From: Burkholderiales bacterium
GTDB lineage: Bacteria; Pseudomonadota; Gammaproteobacteria; Burkholderiales; Burkholderiaceae_C
NCBI GenBank assembly: GCA_017307865.1
Contig: JAFKGE010000051.1
Span: forward strand, 1 to 34,503
DNA: 34,503 bases
Reading direction: 5' to 3'
The notes beneath the pieces are model-generated. The model searched no databases, was not told where the DNA came from, and was given only the letters and a program-made list of their open reading frames with translations. Made by a program: the position numbers and the translations under genes. This document shows positions 3,974-30,612 of this stretch, in pieces. How positions within the stretch are numbered: position 1 is the first letter of the stretch; every line of letters begins with the position of its first letter.

Positions 3974-3980
3974 TGCTCTG

Positions 3981-4037
3981 AATAATATAGCTTATCGCGC
4001 TTGTTGCGCAAGGGCTGGAGGCTTGTTTGGCTTGAAA
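3981..4037 (+). repeat. tagctgc-type interspersed repeat, copy 2
   Basis: The copy has the head aataatatag, the stem region cgcgcttgttgcgcaag and the tail ggcttgtttggcttgaaa. It occupies nearly all of the gap between mreD (stop at 4039) and mrdA (start at 3973), inside the operon. The stem is imperfect and no T-run follows it on the minus strand, so it is more likely a spacer or weak attenuator than a full terminator. Confidence 0.75.
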
Positions 4038-7257: not shown

Positions 7258-8720
7258 GCGGCGCCGCCCTGCACCACCAAAGCGTGGCACGGCTGGCCGC
7301 CGCCCTGCGCGCGCGCGAGGTCTCGGCGGTCGAGCTGGCACGGCACTTTCTGGCCCGCATCGCGCAGCACGCCGAGCTGGGCGCCTTCCTGGCCGTCGAC
7401 GAGGCCATCACGCTGGCGCAGGCGCAGGCCGCCGACGCGCGCCTGGCCGCGGGCGACGCGCCGCCGCTCACGGGCGTGCCGCTGGCGCACAAGGACATCT
7501 TCGTCACCCGCGACTGGCCCACCACCGCCGGCTCGCGCATGCTGGCGGGCTACCGCTCGCCCTTCGACGCCACCGTGGTGCGCAAGCTGGCCGAGGCCGG
7601 CATGGTCGGCCTGGGCAAACTCAACTGCGACGAGTTCGCCATGGGCTCGGCCAACGAGAACTCGGCCTTCGGCGCCGTCAAGAACCCCTGGAACCCGGCG
7701 CACGTGCCGGGCGGCTCGTCGGGCGGCAGCGCCGCCGCCGTGGCCGCGGGCTTGAGCCCCGCCGCCACCGGCACCGACACCGGCGGCTCGATCCGCCAGC
7801 CGTCCAGCTTTTGCGGCGTCACCGGCATCAAGCCCACCTATGGCCGCGCCAGCCGCTACGGCATGATCGCCTTCGCCTCCAGCCTGGACCAGGCCGGGCC
7901 CATGGCGCGCACGGCCGAGGACTGCGCCTTGCTGCTGTCCGTCCTGTGCGGCCCCGACCTGGACCGCGACTCGACCTCGCTGGACGTGCCCACCGAGGAC
8001 TTCACGCGCGGCCTGAACGACTCGCTGGACGGCCTGCGCATCGGCGTGCCGCAAGAGTTTCTGGGTGACGGCCTGGCGCCCGACGTGCGCGCCGCGGTCG
8101 AGGCGGCGCTGGCCGAGCTGGAAAAGCTGGGCGCGCGCCGCGTGCCCATCTCGCTGCCGCGCACCGAGCTGGCCATTCCGGTCTACTACATCATCGCCCC
8201 GGCCGAGGCCAGCTCCAACCTGGAGCGCTTCGACGGCGTCAAGTTCGGCCACCGCGCCAAGGACTACGTCGACCTGGAGGACATGTACAAGAAGACCCGT
8301 GCCGAAGGCTTCGGCGCCGAGGTCAAGCGCCGCATCATGACCGGCACCTACGTGCTCTCGCACGGCTACTACGACGCCTACTACCTGCAGGCGCAAAAGC
8401 TGCGCCGCATGATCGCCGACGACTTCCAGGCTGCGTTCCAGCAATGCGACGTCATTGCCGGCCCGGTGGCGCCCACCGTGGCCTGGGCACTGGGCGCCGC
8501 GCGTGACCCGTTGGCCGACTACCTGGCCGACGTCTACACGCTGCCCGCCAGCCTGGCCGGCCTGCCCGGCATGAGCGTGCCGGCCGGTTTTGGCGCCGGC
8601 GGCCTGCCGGTGGGCCTGCAACTGATCGGCAATTATTTGCAGGAAGGGCGGCTGTTGAACGTGGCGCACCGCTTGCAGCAGGCGACCGATTTCCACCTCC
8701 GCCGTCCGGAGGGCTTTTGA
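7254..8720 (+). CDS. gatA: Asp-tRNA(Asn)/Glu-tRNA(Gln) amidotransferase subunit A
   Basis: The 488-residue amidase subunit hydrolyses glutamine and passes ammonia to GatB, which amidates misacylated Glu-tRNA(Gln) and/or Asp-tRNA(Asn). The amidase-signature triad is intact: Lys80 in PLAHKDIF, Ser155 in the glycine/serine loop [14 protein letters not shown], and nucleophile Ser179 in [10 protein letters not shown]. Length is normal. It overlaps gatC by 4 bp. The 88-bp gap to gatB is filled by a palindromic interspersed repeat rather than a normal operon spacer. Confidence 0.98.
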
Positions 8721-8725
8721 CAATG

Positions 8726-8803
8726 TGCCCCCACGTTCCTCACTTCGTGTATTCACTGCCCCCCGAGGGGGCGGGCCTCCCTTGGGGCGGCCCGGCGGGA
8801 GTC
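8726..8803 (+). repeat. palindromic C/G-run interspersed repeat, copy in the gatA-gatB gap
   Basis: The blocks are tgcccccacg, then cactgccccccgagggggc, then cttggggcggcccggcgg and gagtcc, in that order. The same blocks in the same order occur inside the sensor-kinase gene at 25560-25652. The central cccccgaggggg is self-complementary. The copy pushes gatB 88 bp from gatA and leaves no obvious ribosome binding site except ggagtcc just before the ATG. Confidence 0.75.
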
Positions 8804-8808
8804 CGGCC

Positions 8809-10257
8809 ATGAGCGCCCCCAAACTGATCCAGGGCTACGAGGTCGTCATCGGCTTCGAGACCCACACCCAGCTGCAGACGAACAGCAAGATCTTCAGCCG
8901 CGCGCCCACGGCCTTCGGCGCGGCGCCCAACACCCAGGCCTGCGCGGTCGACCTGGCGCTGCCCGGCACGCTGCCGGTGATGAACCGCGAGGCGGTGCAG
9001 TGCGCTATCAAACTGGGACTGGCGCTCGGCTCCCACATTGCGCCGCGCAGTGTTTTTGCCCGCAAGAACTATTTTTATCCCGACCTGCCCAAGGGCTACC
9101 AGATCAGCCAGTTCGAGATTCCCGTCGTCCAGGGCGGCACGGTGTCCTTCTTTGTCGGTGACGAGAAGAAAACCGTGCGCCTGGTGCGCGCGCACCTGGA
9201 AGAAGACGCCGGCAAGTCGCTGCATGAGGACTATCAGGGCATGAGCGGGATCGACCTGAACCGCGCCGGCACGCCGCTGCTGGAGATCGTGACCGAGCCC
9301 GACATGGGCAGCAGCGACGAGGCGGTGGCCTACGCGCGCGAACTGCACAAGATCGTCACCTGGATCGGCATTTGCGACGGCAACATGCAGGAAGGCAGCT
9401 TTCGCTGCGATGCCAACGTCAGCGTGCGCAAGCCCGGCGCGCCGCTGGGCACGCGCCGCGAGATCAAGAACCTGAACAGCTTCAAGTTCATGCAGCAGGC
9501 GATCGACTTCGAGATCCGCTGGCAGATCGAACAGCTGCAAGACGGCCACGCCATCCAGCAGGCCACCGTGCTGTTCGACCCGGATACCGGCGAGACGCGC
9601 GCCATGCGCACCAAGGAAGACTCGGCCGACTACCGCTACTTTCCCGACCCCGACCTGCCGCCGCTCTGCATTTCAGAGCAATGGATCGAGCAGACGCGCG
9701 CGCAAATGCCCGAATTGCCGCGCGCCATGGCCGAGCGCTTCGTGCGGCAGTACGGCCTGCCCGAGTACGACGCCAGCACGCTCACGCAGTCGCCGGCCAT
9801 GGCGGCCTACTTCGAGGCCGCGGCCCAGGCCAGCGGCCAGCCCAAACCGGCCAGCAACTGGGTGATGGGCGAGCTGTCCAAGCGCCTGAACGCCGACGAG
9901 ATCGGCATCGAGGCCGCCAGGGTGTCGGCCGCGCAGCTGGCGCAGCTGATCGGCCGCATCCACGACGGCACCATCAGCAACGCGGCGGCGCGCCAAGTGT
10001 TCGACGCGCTGTGGTCGGGCGCGGGCAGCGCGGTGGACGCCGTGATCGAGGCCAAGGGCCTGCGGCAGATGAATGACACCGGCGCGCTGGAAAAAATCGT
10101 CGACGCGGTGATCGCCGCCAACCCAGGCAACGTAGAGCAGTTCAAGGCCGGCAAGGACAAGGCTTTCAACGCCCTGGTCGGCCAGGTGATGAAGGCCAGC
10201 AAGGGCAAGGCCAACCCGCAGCAGGCCAGCGAGCTGCTCAAGGCGCGGCTGGCCTGA
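8809..10257 (+). CDS. gatB: Asp-tRNA(Asn)/Glu-tRNA(Gln) amidotransferase subunit B
   Basis: The 482-residue GatB binds the misacylated tRNA, activates the side-chain carboxylate with ATP and transfers ammonia from GatA. The N-terminal cradle has [10 protein letters not shown], the variant here of the usual GFEIHx[26 protein letters not shown] and [19 protein letters not shown] follow. The C-terminal YqeY-like tRNA-binding domain covers about the last 150 residues. The open frame extends 84 bp upstream, but that part is the interspersed repeat; ATG 8809 ([13 protein letters not shown]) fits the family start. It converges with the DUF4124 gene across 21 bp. Confidence 0.97.
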
Positions 10258-12460: not shown

Positions 12461-12524
12461 TAACTATAAATATAGTAGCTGCTCGCGCTTTGTGGGCAAG
12501 CGCTGGCGCCTGATTTCGTTCAAA
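12461..12524 (+). repeat. tagctgc-type interspersed repeat, copy 3
   Basis: The copy has the head taactataaatatag, the stem region tagctgctcgcgctttgtgggcaagcgc and the tail ggcgcctgatttcgttcaaat. The hairpin GCGCTT / AAGCGC lies between the convergent xth and LysR genes and may weakly terminate either transcript. The tail overlaps the lysR-type gene: the stop codon of that gene (12520-12522) is made of repeat sequence. Confidence 0.75.
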
Positions 12525-21832: not shown

Positions 21833-22629
21833 GGGTTGCTCCCTCGTCCCTTTGGAGAGAGGGTGGGGATGAGGGACTGCTGGCGTTGGATCGACTCGCT
21901 GTCGTTTGACATTCGGTTGATCCTGCTCACTCCTGCTGGCCGGGATGTGCGCCCGGCGGCGCACCTTCTTTTCTTTGCGTCGCCAAAGAAAAGAAGGCAA
22001 AAGAAAGGCGACCCCACTGGCCGTGTCCCTGCGCTGCGCTGCGGGCAACCTGCGATGCTCGCGTCTGGGGCGGTGCTGCGGAACTCGCTTCGTTCACTGC
22101 GCTCACTCCGCTCGAACAACCGCAGCAAGTCAGAACACGTTGCATGGGCATGCTCTGCTCCCCATGCCCGCCCCAGCCGCTGCGCTTCTCGGCACGGCCA
22201 GAGGGGATTTCAAAGCCGGGGCCGAGCGCAGCGATGGCCCGCATCAAAACCCCTGTGGCTGCGCCTGCAGCGCGGTGCTTGCGGGGTGGCGCGTGCACCG
22301 CAGGATGCACGCGTTTCGTGGACTGACTCGCGGGGGTTGTTTGAGCGGAGAGAACGCAGTGAACGCAGCGAGTTCCACCGCGCACCCCGCAAGCGCCACG
22401 ACGCAGGTTTGCCCCGTAGCGAAGCGCAGGGGCCGCAGACTTGGGGTCGCCTTTTCTTTGCCTACTTTCTTTTGGCGAAGCAAAAGAAAGTGGGTGCGCT
22501 GCCGGGCGCACATCCCGGCCAGCAGGTGCCTGCAGAGTCAACTGAACATCGAACAACAGCGAGCCCGATCCAACGCCGCTGGCCCCTCACCCCAGCCCTC
22601 TCCCCAAAGAGGCGAGGGAGCAAAAACCC
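21833..22629. repeat. large imperfect palindromic element (about 800 bp)
   Basis: The outer arms 21833-22015 and 22443-22629 are inverted copies. The left arm begins gggttgctccctcg and the right arm ends cgagggagcaaaaaccc. Both contain ctggccgggatgtgcgcccgg (or its complement), a ctttctttt-rich block that is itself a small palindrome, and end in aggcgacccc. Inner pairs are also inverted: 22027-22054 with 22402-22431 (ccctgcgct...aacctgcg) and 22081-22121 with 22335-22376 (gaactcgct...aacaacc). Open frames on both strands here are mirror images of each other and are not treated as genes. The blocks resemble an interspersed element known from many Burkholderiales and Xanthomonadales genomes. 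Confidence 0.85.
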
Positions 22630-23986: not shown

Positions 23987-24019
23987 ATCAAGCGCCAACA
24001 GCTATGAAAATAATAGTTG
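23956..24019 (-). repeat. tagctgc-type interspersed repeat, copy 6 (reverse)
   Basis: On the minus strand it reads caactattattttcatagctgttggcgcttgattcatgcgcgctgcggcccgatttggtttgaa, a good family match with intact tail. Its first 31 bp are translated as the C-terminus of the AmpG-like protein. Its other end lies about 38 bp before the CpxR-type box of the next operon. Confidence 0.75.
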
Positions 24020-24056
24020 AATGCGGCGCCGATGCACGACCGGTCGGCGCCCGCCG

Positions 24057-24071
24057 TTTACCTATCTTTAC
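24057..24071 (-). promoter_or_regulatory. perfect CpxR-type box upstream of the response regulator
   Basis: TTTAC-N5-TTTAC on the plus strand is GTAAA-N5-GTAAA on the minus strand, the CpxR consensus with exact one-turn (10-bp) spacing of the direct repeat. It lies 69 bp before the regulator ATG in otherwise GC-rich DNA, which suggests autoregulation of the two-component operon. Confidence 0.6.
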
Positions 24072-24139
24072 CCGCGCGACAAGCCTTGGGGCCGTGTCGG
24101 CGCGATGATGGATCGCAACCCCTTCTATTGCCGCCGCGC

Positions 24140-24847
24140 ATGAGCACCGCCCACCTGTTGATGATCGAAGACGACGCCCGCCTGGCCGCCATGGTGGGCG
24201 AGTACCTGCGGCAGTCGGGCTACGGCGTGGCGCACGCGGGCGACGGCGAGTCGGGCCTGGCGATGCTGCAGGACGCGCCGGTCGACCTGGTGGTGCTCGA
24301 CCTGATGCTGCCCGGCATCGACGGGCTGGAGGTGTGCCGGCGCATCCGCGCGCTGCCGGGCGATGCGGCGCGCGTGCCGGTGCTGATGCTGACCGCCAAG
24401 GGCGACCCGATGGACCGCATCATCGGGCTGGAGTTGGGCGCCGACGACTACCTGCCCAAGCCCTTCGAGCCGCGCGAGTTGCTGGCGCGCATCCGCGCCG
24501 TGCTGCGCCGGCGCCAGGGCGGCGCCGCGCCCGAGCAGCAGCGCATGAGCTTCGGCAGCCTGGAGATCGACCGCGATGCGCGCACCGTCACCGTGGGCGA
24601 CGTGCCCTGCGAGCTGACCAGCTACCAGTTCGACCTGCTGGTCACGCTGGCCGAGCGCGCCGGGCGCGTGCTGACGCGCGAGCAGATCATGGAGGCGGTG
24701 CGCGGGCGCGAGCTGGAGGCGTTCGACCGCTCGATCGACGTGCACATCGGCCGCATCCGCGCCGCCATCGAGCAGGACGTGAAGAACCCCAAGCGCATCG
24801 TCACCGTGCGCGGGGTCGGCTACGTCTTTGCCAAGCAGCAGGATTAG
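24140..24847 (+). CDS. OmpR-family response regulator, CpxR-like
   Basis: The 235-residue regulator has a receiver domain 1-120 with acidic pocket Glu10-Asp11-Asp12, phospho-acceptor Asp54 (VVLDLMLPG), Thr85 and Lys107 (DDYLPKPF). The winged-helix DNA-binding domain is about 135-235, with VLTREQIMEAVRGRELEAFDRSIDVHIGRIR. The stretches IIGLELGADDYLPKPFEPRE and FDRSIDVHI are close to E. coli CpxR. A perfect CpxR-type box lies upstream. ATG 24140 gives the conserved start (MSTAHLLMIEDD); the frame upstream to 24017 covers the box and is not coding. It is followed 36 bp later by its sensor kinase. Confidence 0.93.
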   Translation: MSTAHLLMIEDDARLAAMVGEYLRQSGYGVAHAGDGESGLAMLQDAPVDLVVLDLMLPGIDGLEVCRRIRALPGDAARVPVLMLTAKGDPMDRIIGLELGADDYLPKPFEPRELLARIRAVLRRRQGGAAPEQQRMSFGSLEIDRDARTVTVGDVPCELTSYQFDLLVTLAERAGRVLTREQIMEAVRGRELEAFDRSIDVHIGRIRAAIEQDVKNPKRIVTVRGVGYVFAKQQD

Positions 24848-24883: not shown

Positions 24884-26218
24884 ATGGCCAATCCCATCGC
24901 CCGCAAGCTGTACGTGCGCATCTGGCTGGCCGTGGCCGGCAGCGTGCTGCTGCTGAGCCTGGTGCTGGGCTGGGCCTGGCACCGCGCCGAGCGCGAGCGC
25001 GAGCGCATGCGCCTGCTGCAGCCGCCGCGCGAGGTGGTGGTGCGCAACGAGGGGGGCGAGCGCATCGGCAGCGCCGCGGCGCTGATTCGCCGCGGACCCG
25101 GCCACGGCACCGAGTTCGCCGTCACCCTGGACGACGGCGAGGTGCTCAACCTGGAGCTGGCGCCGCCGCGCGCGGCGGCCGCGCGCGCGCGCCCGGCCGG
25201 CTCGCGCCGGCTGCTGAGCTGGCTGCGTCCGCCCTACGGCTTCATCTGGATCGTCGGGCTGGCGGGGCTGGCCGTGATGGTGGGCGTGTTTCCGATCGCC
25301 CGGCGCCTGACCCAGCGGCTGGAGAGCCTGCAGCACGGCGTGCAGCGTTGGGGCGAGGGCCATCTGGACGAGCGCGTGCCGGTGGTTGGCAGCGACGAAG
25401 TGGCCGACCTGTCGCGCCACTTCAACGCCGCCGCCGCCCGCATCGAGGAGCTGATGCAAGGCCAGGCCGCGCTGCTGCAGTCGCAGAAGTCGCTGCTGGC
25501 CAATGCCTCGCACGAGCTGCGCTCGCCCTTGGCGCGCATCAGGATGGCCCTCGAACTCATGCCCCCACGCTCCGCGGCTGCGCCTGCTGCGCTGCCCCCC
25601 GAGGGGGCCGTCGCCGCCTTGGGGCGGCCCGGCGGCGGCGAGTCCCTCGGTTCGCAAGGGCTGGCGGTTGCGGAGATCCAGCGCAACATCGCCGAGCTGG
25701 ACCAGCTGGTCGATGAAATCCTGCTGGCCAGCCGGCTGGAGGCGCCGCAGACCGACCTGGGCACGCTGGAGCTGATCGACCTGGCTGGCCTGGCGGCCGA
25801 GGAGGCGGCGCGCGTGGATGCCGAGCTGAGCCTGGCGCCCGGCACCGGCGAGGTGCTGGTGCGTGGCGTGTCCAAGCTGCTGCGGCGTGCGGTGCGCAAC
25901 CTGCTGGAGAACGCCGCCCGCCACGGCCGGCGCGCCGGGCAGCAGCTGACCGTGGACGTGACGCTGTCGGTCGCTGACGCGCAGGCCGTGCTGCAGGTGG
26001 ACGACCATGGGCCGGGCGTGCCGCCCGAGCAGCGCGAGCGCATCTTCGAGCCCTTTTACCGCCTGCCCGGCGCCAGCGAGCGCGAGGGCGGCGTGGGCCT
26101 GGGCTTGGCGCTGGTGCGCTCGATCGCCCAGCGCCATGGCGGCAGCGTGCGCTGCGGCGAGCACCCCGGCGGCGGCGCGCGCTTCACCCTGCGCCTGCCG
26201 TTGGCCGATCCCGGTTGA
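24884..26218 (+). CDS. sensor histidine kinase, CpxA-like, with an insertion in the DHp hairpin
   Basis: The 444-residue inner-membrane kinase is the partner of the preceding regulator. TM1 is about 13-31 and TM2 about 119-139. A short periplasmic domain lies between, with an Ala/Arg/Pro-rich end. The HAMP domain follows (FPIARRLTQRLESL, 136-190). The DHp domain has phospho-acceptor His210 in LANASHELRSPLARIRMALEL. The ATPase has N-box NLLENAARHG, G1 DDHGPGVP, F-box FEPFYRLP and G2 GGVGLGLALV. Between DHp helix 1 (ends near Met226) and helix 2 (AEIQRNIAELDQLVDEIL, from about 263) there are about 35 extra Pro/Ala/Gly-rich residues, where relatives have a short loop. They are encoded by a palindromic interspersed repeat in frame. 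All catalytic motifs remain. Confidence 0.93.
   Translation: MANPIARKLYVRIWLAVAGSVLLLSLVLGWAWHRAERERERMRLLQPPREVVVRNEGGERIGSAAALIRRGPGHGTEFAVTLDDGEVLNLELAPPRAAAARARPAGSRRLLSWLRPPYGFIWIVGLAGLAVMVGVFPIARRLTQRLESLQHGVQRWGEGHLDERVPVVGSDEVADLSRHFNAAAARIEELMQGQAALLQSQKSLLANASHELRSPLARIRMALELMPPRSAAAPAALPPEGAVAALGRPGGGESLGSQGLAVAEIQRNIAELDQLVDEILLASRLEAPQTDLGTLELIDLAGLAAEEAARVDAELSLAPGTGEVLVRGVSKLLRRAVRNLLENAARHGRRAGQQLTVDVTLSVADAQAVLQVDDHGPGVPPEQRERIFEPFYRLPGASEREGGVGLGLALVRSIAQRHGGSVRCGEHPGGGARFTLRLPLADPG
25560..25652 (+). repeat. palindromic C/G-run interspersed repeat inside the kinase gene
   Basis: The blocks tgcccccacg, ctgcgctgccccccgagggggc and cttggggcggcccggcgg, then gagtcc, occur in the same order as at 8726-8803 in the gatA-gatB gap. 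Here they lie within the open frame of the kinase and are translated as PPRSAAAPAALPPEGAVAAL and what follows. Confidence 0.75.
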
Positions 26219-29078: not shown

Positions 29079-30017
29079 TCAAACCTGGGCCAGCCAGTGG
29101 GCGTACTTGGCGTTGCGGCCGTTCACGATGTCGAAGAACGCGCCCTGGATTTTCTCGGTGACGGGGCCGCGCTGGCCGGCGCCGATCTGGATGCGGTCGT
29201 ATTCGCGGATCGGCGTGACCTCGGCCGCCGTACCGCTGAAGAACATCTCGTCGGCGATGTAGCACTCGTCGCGCGTGATGCGCTTTTGCACCACCTTCAG
29301 GCCCAGGTCCTCGCAGATGTGCAGCACCGTGTTGCGCGTGATGCCGTTGAGCGCGCCGGCCGACAGGTCGGGCGTGTAGACGGTGCCGTCCTTGACGACG
29401 AACAGGTTCTCGCCCGAGCCTTCGCTGACGAAGCCGCTGCTGTCCAGCAGCACGGCCTCGTCGTAGCCATCGTCGGTGGCTTCCATGTTGGCCAGGATCG
29501 AGTTGGTGTAGTTGCTGACCGTCTTGGCCTGCGTCATGGTGATGTTGACGTGGTGGCGCGCGTAGCTGCTGGTGCGCACGCGGATGCCCTTCTTCATGCC
29601 GTCCTCGCCCAAGTAGGCGCCCCAGGACCAGGCCGCCACCATGGCGTGGATGCGGTTGCCCTTGGGCGAGACGCCCAGTTTCTCCGAGCCGATCCACACC
29701 AGCGGGCGCAGGTAACAGCTCTTCAGGCCGTTGGCGCGCACCACCTCTTTTTGCGCGGCGTTCAGCTCGTCGGCGCTGAAGGGCACCTTCATGCGCAGGA
29801 TCTTGGCGCTGTTGAGCAGGCGCTGGGTGTGGTCCTGCAGGCGGAACACCGCCGTGCCGGCGGCCGTCTCATAGGCGCGCACGCCTTCGAAGGCGCCGCA
29901 GCCGTAGTGCAGCGTGTGGGTCAGGACGTGGATCTTGGCGTCGCGCCAGTCCACCATCTGGCCGTCCAGCCAGATCTTGCCGTCGCGGTCGTCGAGCGAA
30001 GGTGCGGGAGAGCTCAT
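29079..30017 (-). CDS. ilvE: branched-chain amino acid aminotransferase
   Basis: The 312-residue fold-type IV PLP enzyme does the last step of Leu, Ile and Val synthesis, the transamination of branched 2-oxo acids with glutamate. It has THTLHYGCGAFEGVRAY at 33-49, YLRPLVWIG, PLP lysine Lys165 in QAKTVSNYTNSILAN, EGSGENLFVVKDG, GITRNTVL, and FFSGTAAEVTPI near the C-terminus. The first gene of a likely ilvE-zinc finger-ligase-glycosyltransferase transcript. ATG 30017 is 73 bp from the stop of the next gene upstream. Confidence 0.97.
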   Translation of the reverse strand: MSSPAPSLDDRDGKIWLDGQMVDWRDAKIHVLTHTLHYGCGAFEGVRAYETAAGTAVFRLQDHTQRLLNSAKILRMKVPFSADELNAAQKEVVRANGLKSCYLRPLVWIGSEKLGVSPKGNRIHAMVAAWSWGAYLGEDGMKKGIRVRTSSYARHHVNITMTQAKTVSNYTNSILANMEATDDGYDEAVLLDSSGFVSEGSGENLFVVKDGTVYTPDLSAGALNGITRNTVLHICEDLGLKVVQKRITRDECYIADEMFFSGTAAEVTPIREYDRIQIGAGQRGPVTEKIQGAFFDIVNGRNAKYAHWLAQV

Positions 30018-30547: not shown

Positions 30548-30612
30548 ATAACTATAAAAAAAATAGCTGCTCGCGCTTGCTGCACAAGCGCGAGCAGCCG
30601 ATTTGGCTTGAA
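30548..30612 (+). repeat. tagctgc-type interspersed repeat, copy 7 (best-preserved)
   Basis: This is the clearest copy: head ataactataaaaaaaatag, perfect 13-bp stem ctgctcgcgcttg (30567-30579) / caagcgcgagcag (30585-30597) with loop ctgca, then tail ccgatttggcttgaa. It lies between proX and the small membrane protein gene. Confidence 0.85.
30552..30597 (-). terminator. intrinsic terminator of the proVWX transcript, formed by repeat copy 7
   Basis: Read on the minus strand, the 13-bp perfect stem is followed by gctatttttttt: eight Ts at 30563-30556, three nucleotides beyond the stem. It starts about 36 nt after the proX stop. This is a strong rho-independent terminator made entirely of interspersed-repeat sequence. 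Confidence 0.75.

Follow-up and report, generated by a model that had tools for sequence, protein, structure and literature searches.

Introduction

In-frame mobile repeats are best known from Rickettsia, and relaxed selection is a usual excuse for their presence. Rickettsia palindromic elements (RPEs) are small palindromic repeats that have inserted both within unrelated genes, in frame, and at other places (review PMC10969869, which lists Ogata 2000 and 2002 among its references). In betaproteobacteria, Hot et al. (2011) described the Beta-proteobacterial repeat element (BRE), a unit of 75-91 bp that occurs in tandem in Bordetella and Comamonadaceae and is richest in Polaromonas (PMC3110155). 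Partial copies of about 40-60 bp were also described, some copies were 'entirely within coding sequences', and the mean GC content in Bordetella was 69.0% (63.7-78.9) (PMC3110155). The section of that paper on BRE contains no analysis of frames, host proteins or loops. Apart from that paper and the Rickettsia literature, none of the matches listed for the open-access literature, judged by title and abstract opening, deals with reading frames, affected genes or repeatedly hit loops of a repeat from betaproteobacteria. Here, we describe a GC-rich repeat of a Burkholderiales genome, one copy of which is read in frame within a sensor histidine kinase.

Results

The sensor kinase gene and the repeat unit

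The window, that is, the whole stretch of 34,503 nucleotides analysed here (contig JAFKGE010000051.1), contains the following features.

24017-24847, forward strand: response regulator (Response_reg and Trans_reg_C, by domain matches), followed by the kinase gene
24884-26218, forward strand: sensor histidine kinase gene, 444 amino acids, by domain matches
25560-25646, forward strand: full-length repeat copy, by covariance model, reading MPPRSAAAPAALPPEGAVAALGRPGGGESL in frame at the turn that links the two DHp helices
8726-8809, forward strand: second copy of the repeat, intergenic, by covariance model
25594-25608, forward strand: invariant hairpin GCCCCC-CGA-GGGGGC of the repeat, by copy alignment
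25611-25641, forward strand: second hairpin, with variable arms (25611-25618 and 25634-25641) that covary between copies, around TTGGGGCGGCCC

The kinase contains HAMP (residues 138-189), HisKA (201-287) and HATPase_c (329-441) domains, with H210 as the phospho-acceptor; its type is RstB/CpxA/EnvZ-like, with a score below every curated NCBIfam cut-off shown. The response regulator, whose real start is probably downstream of 24017, is by position the cognate partner of the kinase. An earlier note on this DNA, made from the letters alone, had proposed that blocks within the kinase gene match an intergenic repeat in order, with the frame kept and all catalytic motifs remaining. We found the blocks in the same order at 25560-25646 and 8726-8809, and the H210, HisKA and HATPase_c matches were intact. 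The size given there required correction: the unit in the kinase is 87 nt rather than about 99 bp. The intergenic copy at 8726-8809 occupies nearly the entire spacer between the stop codon (8718-8720) of what we take to be a GatA-like gene and the ATG (8809-8811) of a presumably GatB-like one, and provides GGGAG directly before that ATG.

A strict two-block core, defined independently of any model, matched 16 times in the whole genome, and the reversed control pattern matched 0 times. A covariance model built from these 16 copies detected 52 copies at E<=0.001. Both window copies scored well (85.7 bits for 25560-25646 and 81.3 bits for 8726-8809), a match by construction, as they are among the 16 model-building copies. 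The unit measured 83-89 nt in 49 of the 52 copies and 71, 73 and 79 nt in the other three; the commonest length was 86 nt (25 copies). Several copies lie head to tail, for example C71:197738-197824 with 197825-197911, and three at C49:12952-13211. The repeat is GC-rich, the two window copies having GC contents of 74 and 85%. A weak model match at 29846-29922, in a gene that we take to be IlvE-like, was dismissed because it looks like chance. The window also contains a second repeat family (3976-4036, 12464-12524 and 30552-30612) and large inverted repeats at 21836-22623.

The hairpins were analysed across the copies. All six pairs of the first helix are invariant, and this helix therefore gives no covariation evidence. 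In the second helix, 7 of 8 pairs vary on both sides, and the covariation score was reached by 0 of 500 shuffles; the arms of a given copy paired better than exchanged arms, with an exception in 1 of 10000 permutations. Overall, 91.3% of cells were paired, and all slid controls scored lower. The kinase copy did not fold clearly more stably than shuffled sequences: modelled as RNA, it was equalled or surpassed by 40 of 200 shuffles (z-score -0.73), and modelled as DNA by 24 of 200 (z-score -1.27). For the 8726-8809 copy as RNA, 83 of 200 shuffles folded at least equally well.

It is possible, though on balance unlikely, that the element acts mainly as an RNA or DNA structure, such as a terminator, stabiliser or small RNA, and that the in-gene copies are accidental. 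The covarying arms of the second hairpin and the location of a Bordetella BRE in the bprJ1/bprJ2 small-RNA region (PMC3110155) would fit such a role. However, a search of 16 loci against Rfam yielded no family at the gathering threshold, in-gene copies occur on both strands (11 sense and 26 antisense), and the BRE section of Hot et al. assigns no function to the element (PMC3110155). A structural role would be compatible with the interpretation given in the Discussion, the two not being exclusive.

Distribution and movement

Within the genus, 18 of 29 genomes had the strict core, the present genome among them. The covariance model had matches in 30 of the 33 named genomes to which it was applied, at between 1 and 132 copies per positive genome; these 33 are the genomes behind the named loci, drawn from the 80 best-scoring named loci rather than sampled at random. 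Four Polaromonas genomes had 41-132 copies, Xenophilus sp. E41 (hereafter E41) 59, P. citrulli 4, and Delftia PS-11 3.

With a length of about 86 nt, the element shows no sign of carrying a gene. We put at about even odds that an enzyme recognising the hairpins moves it in trans and that the tandem arrays grow by slippage. One Y1 (RAYT-like) transposase domain was identified in the genome (C43:45000-45332). A RAYT next to copies of the repeat was looked for and rejected: this locus (L170), the sole Y1_Tnp locus found in the genome, contained no copy of the repeat. The flanks upstream of the copies were moderately A-rich for a GC-rich genome. In a test for target-site duplication, flank similarity slightly exceeded that of swapped pairs (equalled in 2 of 200 and 0 of 200 shuffles), a result confounded by tandem copies and flank composition.

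In-frame copies in other genes

The coding context of the 52 copies was assigned with a simple codon-usage score trained on the window, plus homology, and the same score was applied to E41. By inspection, 16 copies in 15 genes of this genome looked in frame. One fixed automatic rule gave 15 of 52 in-frame in-gene copies here and 22 of 59 in E41; UvrA and RsmH failed this rule here, and a second BepA copy passed. According to NCBIfam/Pfam, which covered the 14 non-kinase proteins of this genome, the genes encode TsaC, ValS, AmgK, UvrA, BepA, PEP carboxylase, RsmH, an RND permease, Fmt, MurU, PurL, LigA, AidB and an OlsE-like hydroxylase. Each had a Pfam match above cut-off; AmgK, BepA, MurU, OlsE, UvrA and the RND permease were below the NCBIfam cut-off, the ORFs of UvrA and the RND permease being cut by the locus end. 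valS carries two inserts, and the RsmH copies sit behind the family match, forming a C-terminal tail. When the flanks alone were considered, both were in the same frame at 12 sites and in different frames at 2 here (14 and 4 in E41); the latter sites may be gene boundaries or broken genes.

Comparison with solved homologues placed the insert in a clean gap in six of nine cases, as follows.

ValRS insert: between residues 472 and 473 of 1gax
LigA insert: between residues 161 and 165 of 2owo
PurL insert: between residues 600 and 604 of 1t3t
PEP carboxylase (ppc) insert: between residues 567 and 573 of 1fiy
Fmt insert, three tandem copies: between residues 100 and 104 of 1fmt
AidB insert: between residues 108 and 110 of 3djl

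Searches of the PDB with the kinase, UvrA and the RND permease did not yield a clean junction. In fmt (L152, contig C49), the three tandem copies account for about 85 extra residues, which lie a little N-terminal of the conserved N-x-H-x-SLLPRWRG motif of methionyl-tRNA formyltransferase, as read from the alignment. The uvrA (L143) and purL (L011) ORFs also contain the peptides PSPPPSPQRGEGA and SPLTPTLSPEGRGS. These look like a translated third repeat, akin to the inverted repeats at 21836-22623, and other repeats, too, may enter genes in frame.

The reading frame of the in-gene copies was strongly biased. In the 34 of 52 copies with a GAGGGG core, all six frames were mostly stop-free (25 to 32 of 34). 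Against this background of open frames, all 11 in-gene sense copies were read in the LPPEGA frame (binomial p 6e-6), and the 26 antisense copies in the APSGGS frame (20), a second frame (5) or the third (1) (binomial p 5e-5); tandem neighbours were entered separately, so that the counts are not fully independent, and one E41 copy was assigned with four core mismatches. Each disfavoured frame (CPPRG, AAPRGG and PPRGA) has an arginine in its core peptide, and LPPEGA, APSGGS and GPLGGQ have none. Selection acting on the peptide is therefore a likely filter. In the two valS inserts common to this genome and another of the genus (G152), 13 changed codons were non-synonymous and 2 synonymous; the corresponding numbers for the remainder of valS were 130 and 148 (p 0.003). 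These two inserts thus keep the frame and not the peptide, and their codon changes give no hint of constraint on the protein.

The same loops in other genomes

Six of the 15 genes (kinase, valS, tsaC, amgK, uvrA and ppc) were compared with orthologues in three genomes of the genus (G015, G146 and G152), in the genome of the nearest kinase relative (G176) and in E41. The comparison did not extend to fmt, purL, ligA, aidB, rnd, murU, olsE and rsmH, and bepA, though included, gave no clear picture; the first four of these nine have clean PDB junctions. Insert-free orthologues exist, and there the flanks of the insert abut, or nearly so.

Both valS inserts were shared with G152 (83% ValS identity) and absent from G176 (91%), G015 (87%) and G146 (85%); E41 valS lacked the first insert and had a different short sequence at the second site. 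For PEP carboxylase, a decayed copy was found in G176, none in G146 and G152, and a copy with another upstream frame in E41. The AmgK loop carried copies here and in G146, partly in G015, and in E41 in the opposite orientation, and was short in G176 and G152. For UvrA, a copy was present in E41, a short sequence in G152, and no copy in G176, G146 and G015. TsaC had no insert in E41 and G015. Thus, of the seven sites examined, E41 shares four (kinase, UvrA, PEP carboxylase and AmgK) and lacks a copy at the two valS sites and in TsaC. A shared-gene test gave p 3e-5 and 9e-7, values that are only indicative because gene totals of 1500 and 3500 were assumed, the counts (14, 21 and 4) were set by hand, and shared inheritance would pass the test too.

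The UvrA insert was 51 consecutive bases identical between this genome and E41. In a search of 110 genomes (109 matched), the best 30 loci, selected by score and not at random, included clear copies also in G014, G065 and G023 and likely remnants in G101 and G089; the site, strand and frame of the uvrA inserts were common across five genera, this one included. Because of the identity with E41 and the copies in three further genera, the UvrA insert may be an old inheritance and not a fresh insertion. In uvrA of another genome (L207, G019), a different stretch (GCTACAAAATTAGTAGC...) lies in frame in the same loop; by eye it resembles the second repeat family of the window (3976-4036, 12464-12524 and 30552-30612).

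Could all the inserts be old, dating from a Comamonadaceae ancestor and since lost precisely many times, with little recent movement? The agreement of the uvrA inserts over five genera argues in this direction, as do the valS inserts shared with G152 and missing from the closer G176, G015 and G146. We nevertheless consider this history unlikely, in view of the opposite orientation of the amgK copy in E41 and of the kinase, whose carriers fall in separate clades with nearest other members that lack the insert. The AmgK orientation and the kinase tree favour separate insertions at the same loops. A more specific possibility, which we put forward tentatively as rather less than probable, is a recurrent and partly targeted system of loop insertion, in which one set of loops (the kinase DHp turn, UvrA, PEP carboxylase, AmgK and ValRS) receives the element in a readable frame in several lineages, where it decays and perhaps is lost again. 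If so, it would lastingly supply conserved enzymes of bacteria with large genomes with variation in loop length.

The insert at the DHp turn of the kinase

The kinase was compared with 108 homologues (109 sequences in total; L102 was dropped since the motif was absent). A further alignment (A2) comprised the window kinase and 52 homologues; L107 was left out for a stop in its translation, and L093, L110, L117, L126 and others to shorten the list. A recognisable insert at the DHp turn was present in 3 of the 108 homologue rows, L047, L019 and L056, and a few other rows had DHp loops of intermediate length. L056 is E41; L019 has one and the same sequence and is probably of the same species. The window kinase had gained a net 27 residues relative to the insert-free L049 and L024, fewer than the 33-35 given before.

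L047 was the sister of the window kinase (support 1.0); its insert begins with the same 27 repeat bases as the window copy and continues in a shortened in-frame form. The nearest sequences in the same clade, L048 and L049 (support 1.0), had no insert. The E41 kinase grouped with that of X. aerolatus (support 1.0), which had none either. Two separate gains at this turn would be the simplest reading of the tree. The proposal of an interspersed repeat turned into protein in frame inside the DHp hairpin is thus supported; of the close orthologues, L048 and L049 lack the segment and L047 carries the shortened form.

In the predicted model of the window kinase, helices 172-225 and 254-286 are joined by coil, and insert residues 231-250 are predicted to be disordered (pLDDT block means 56 and 51). 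The model of the insert-free L049 has helices 171-224 and 231-258 with a six-residue turn. Both are single-chain predictions and say nothing on handedness in the dimer. An alignment with the CpxA structure was set aside, as it passes across the insert and shows no clean gap there.

Whether autophosphorylation takes place in cis or in trans is reported to depend on the loop between the DHp helices (PMC5956149, in a passage citing Ashenberg 2013). On this basis, the insert might have been selected, a long flexible turn freeing the handedness of the bundle and shifting cis/trans autophosphorylation or the kinase/phosphatase ratio, and the E41 copy at the same turn, with X. aerolatus as its insert-free nearest relative in the tree, would suit such retuning. 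We judge it improbable: the insert is rare among the homologues (3 of 108), shortened in the sister L047, predicted to be disordered, and found in many unrelated enzymes. The earlier view that the position is special for tuning of the kinase was not supported in the form given, since about 14 further genes of this genome carry the same repeat in frame. Because of these genes, a general tolerance of in-frame loop insertions explains the kinase without a kinase-specific role, and the insert is most likely a tolerated passenger loop.

That the GC-rich stretch is an ordinary linker expansion resembling the intergenic repeat by chance composition can be rejected with near certainty: taken by themselves, the two short blocks are of modest rarity within the window (as many matches arose in 8 and 6 of 100 shuffles), but the genome census of 16 core matches against 0 for the reversed pattern and 52 model copies contradicts it, and a copy on contig C90 is identical base for base to the kinase copy over 48 positions (columns 2-49).

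Discussion

We consider it likely that the element is a non-autonomous, hairpin-forming interspersed repeat of Comamonadaceae, whose in-gene copies survive in flexible loops and tolerated frames, and that the kinase copy is one such case. In the model we propose, the repeat would spread through Comamonadaceae genomes non-autonomously, and a copy entering a gene would tend to persist if its length keeps the frame, if the site is a flexible loop, and if strand and frame yield a low-charge peptide rich in Pro, Gly and Ala. The kinase copy would have been gained before the split from L047, lengthening the turn of the DHp hairpin by 27 residues that are predicted to be disordered, with the helices and catalytic motifs kept.

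In-frame mobile repeats are encountered here in large-genome betaproteobacteria, and the enzymes affected include ValRS, Fmt, LigA and PurL. The same module of ~29 residues in many proteins, often with insert-free orthologues, constitutes a natural library for direct tests of how far loops tolerate insertion, how the frame is filtered and how new stretches of protein arise; the kinase is a ready example with a known structural hinge. It also appears to be one case of a wider route by which junk-like DNA turns into protein, and many of the affected genes are housekeeping genes.

Comparison with known systems

With RstB/CpxA/EnvZ-type kinases, the window kinase shares the HAMP-HisKA-HATPase layout and the catalytic motifs; it differs in its DHp turn, which is 27 residues longer than in L049 and L024. 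Regarding the terminal inverted repeats of MITEs, the GCCCCC at the 5' end of the kinase copy pairs with GGGGGC in the middle and not with the 3' end. Like REP elements associated with RAYTs, the repeat forms short hairpins, has many copies and is possibly moved in trans; unlike them, it has a longer unit with two or three hairpins, and no copy lies in the locus of the sole Y1 transposase found in the genome.

The likeness to BRE is closer. The unit length is similar (75-91 bp in the description of BRE; all but three of the 52 copies here fall within 83-89 nt), both form head-to-tail arrays with no or few bases between tandem copies, and both are spread over Comamonadaceae with Polaromonas richest; P. 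citrulli has 4 copies in each case, in different strains (PMC3110155). The counts for Delftia differ, 3 in PS-11 here and 13 in another strain (PMC3110155), and the mean GC content of BRE in Bordetella (69.0%) is below that of the window copies (74 and 85%), the composition of the hosts differing. Compared by description, that is, by length, arrays and distribution rather than by sequence, the repeat is probably BRE.

By behaviour, the repeat can be likened to RPE. RPE is about 150 bp long and belongs to host-restricted bacteria, whereas the present repeat is about 86 bp long, GC-rich and found in Comamonadaceae; both are inserted in frame in unrelated genes. The preferred frame and the one peptide per strand of protein-coding repeats of the RPE type were encountered here as well, in 11 of 11 sense and 20 of 26 antisense copies. 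What is new here, therefore, is that a probably known repeat family behaves as a further case of protein-coding repeats.
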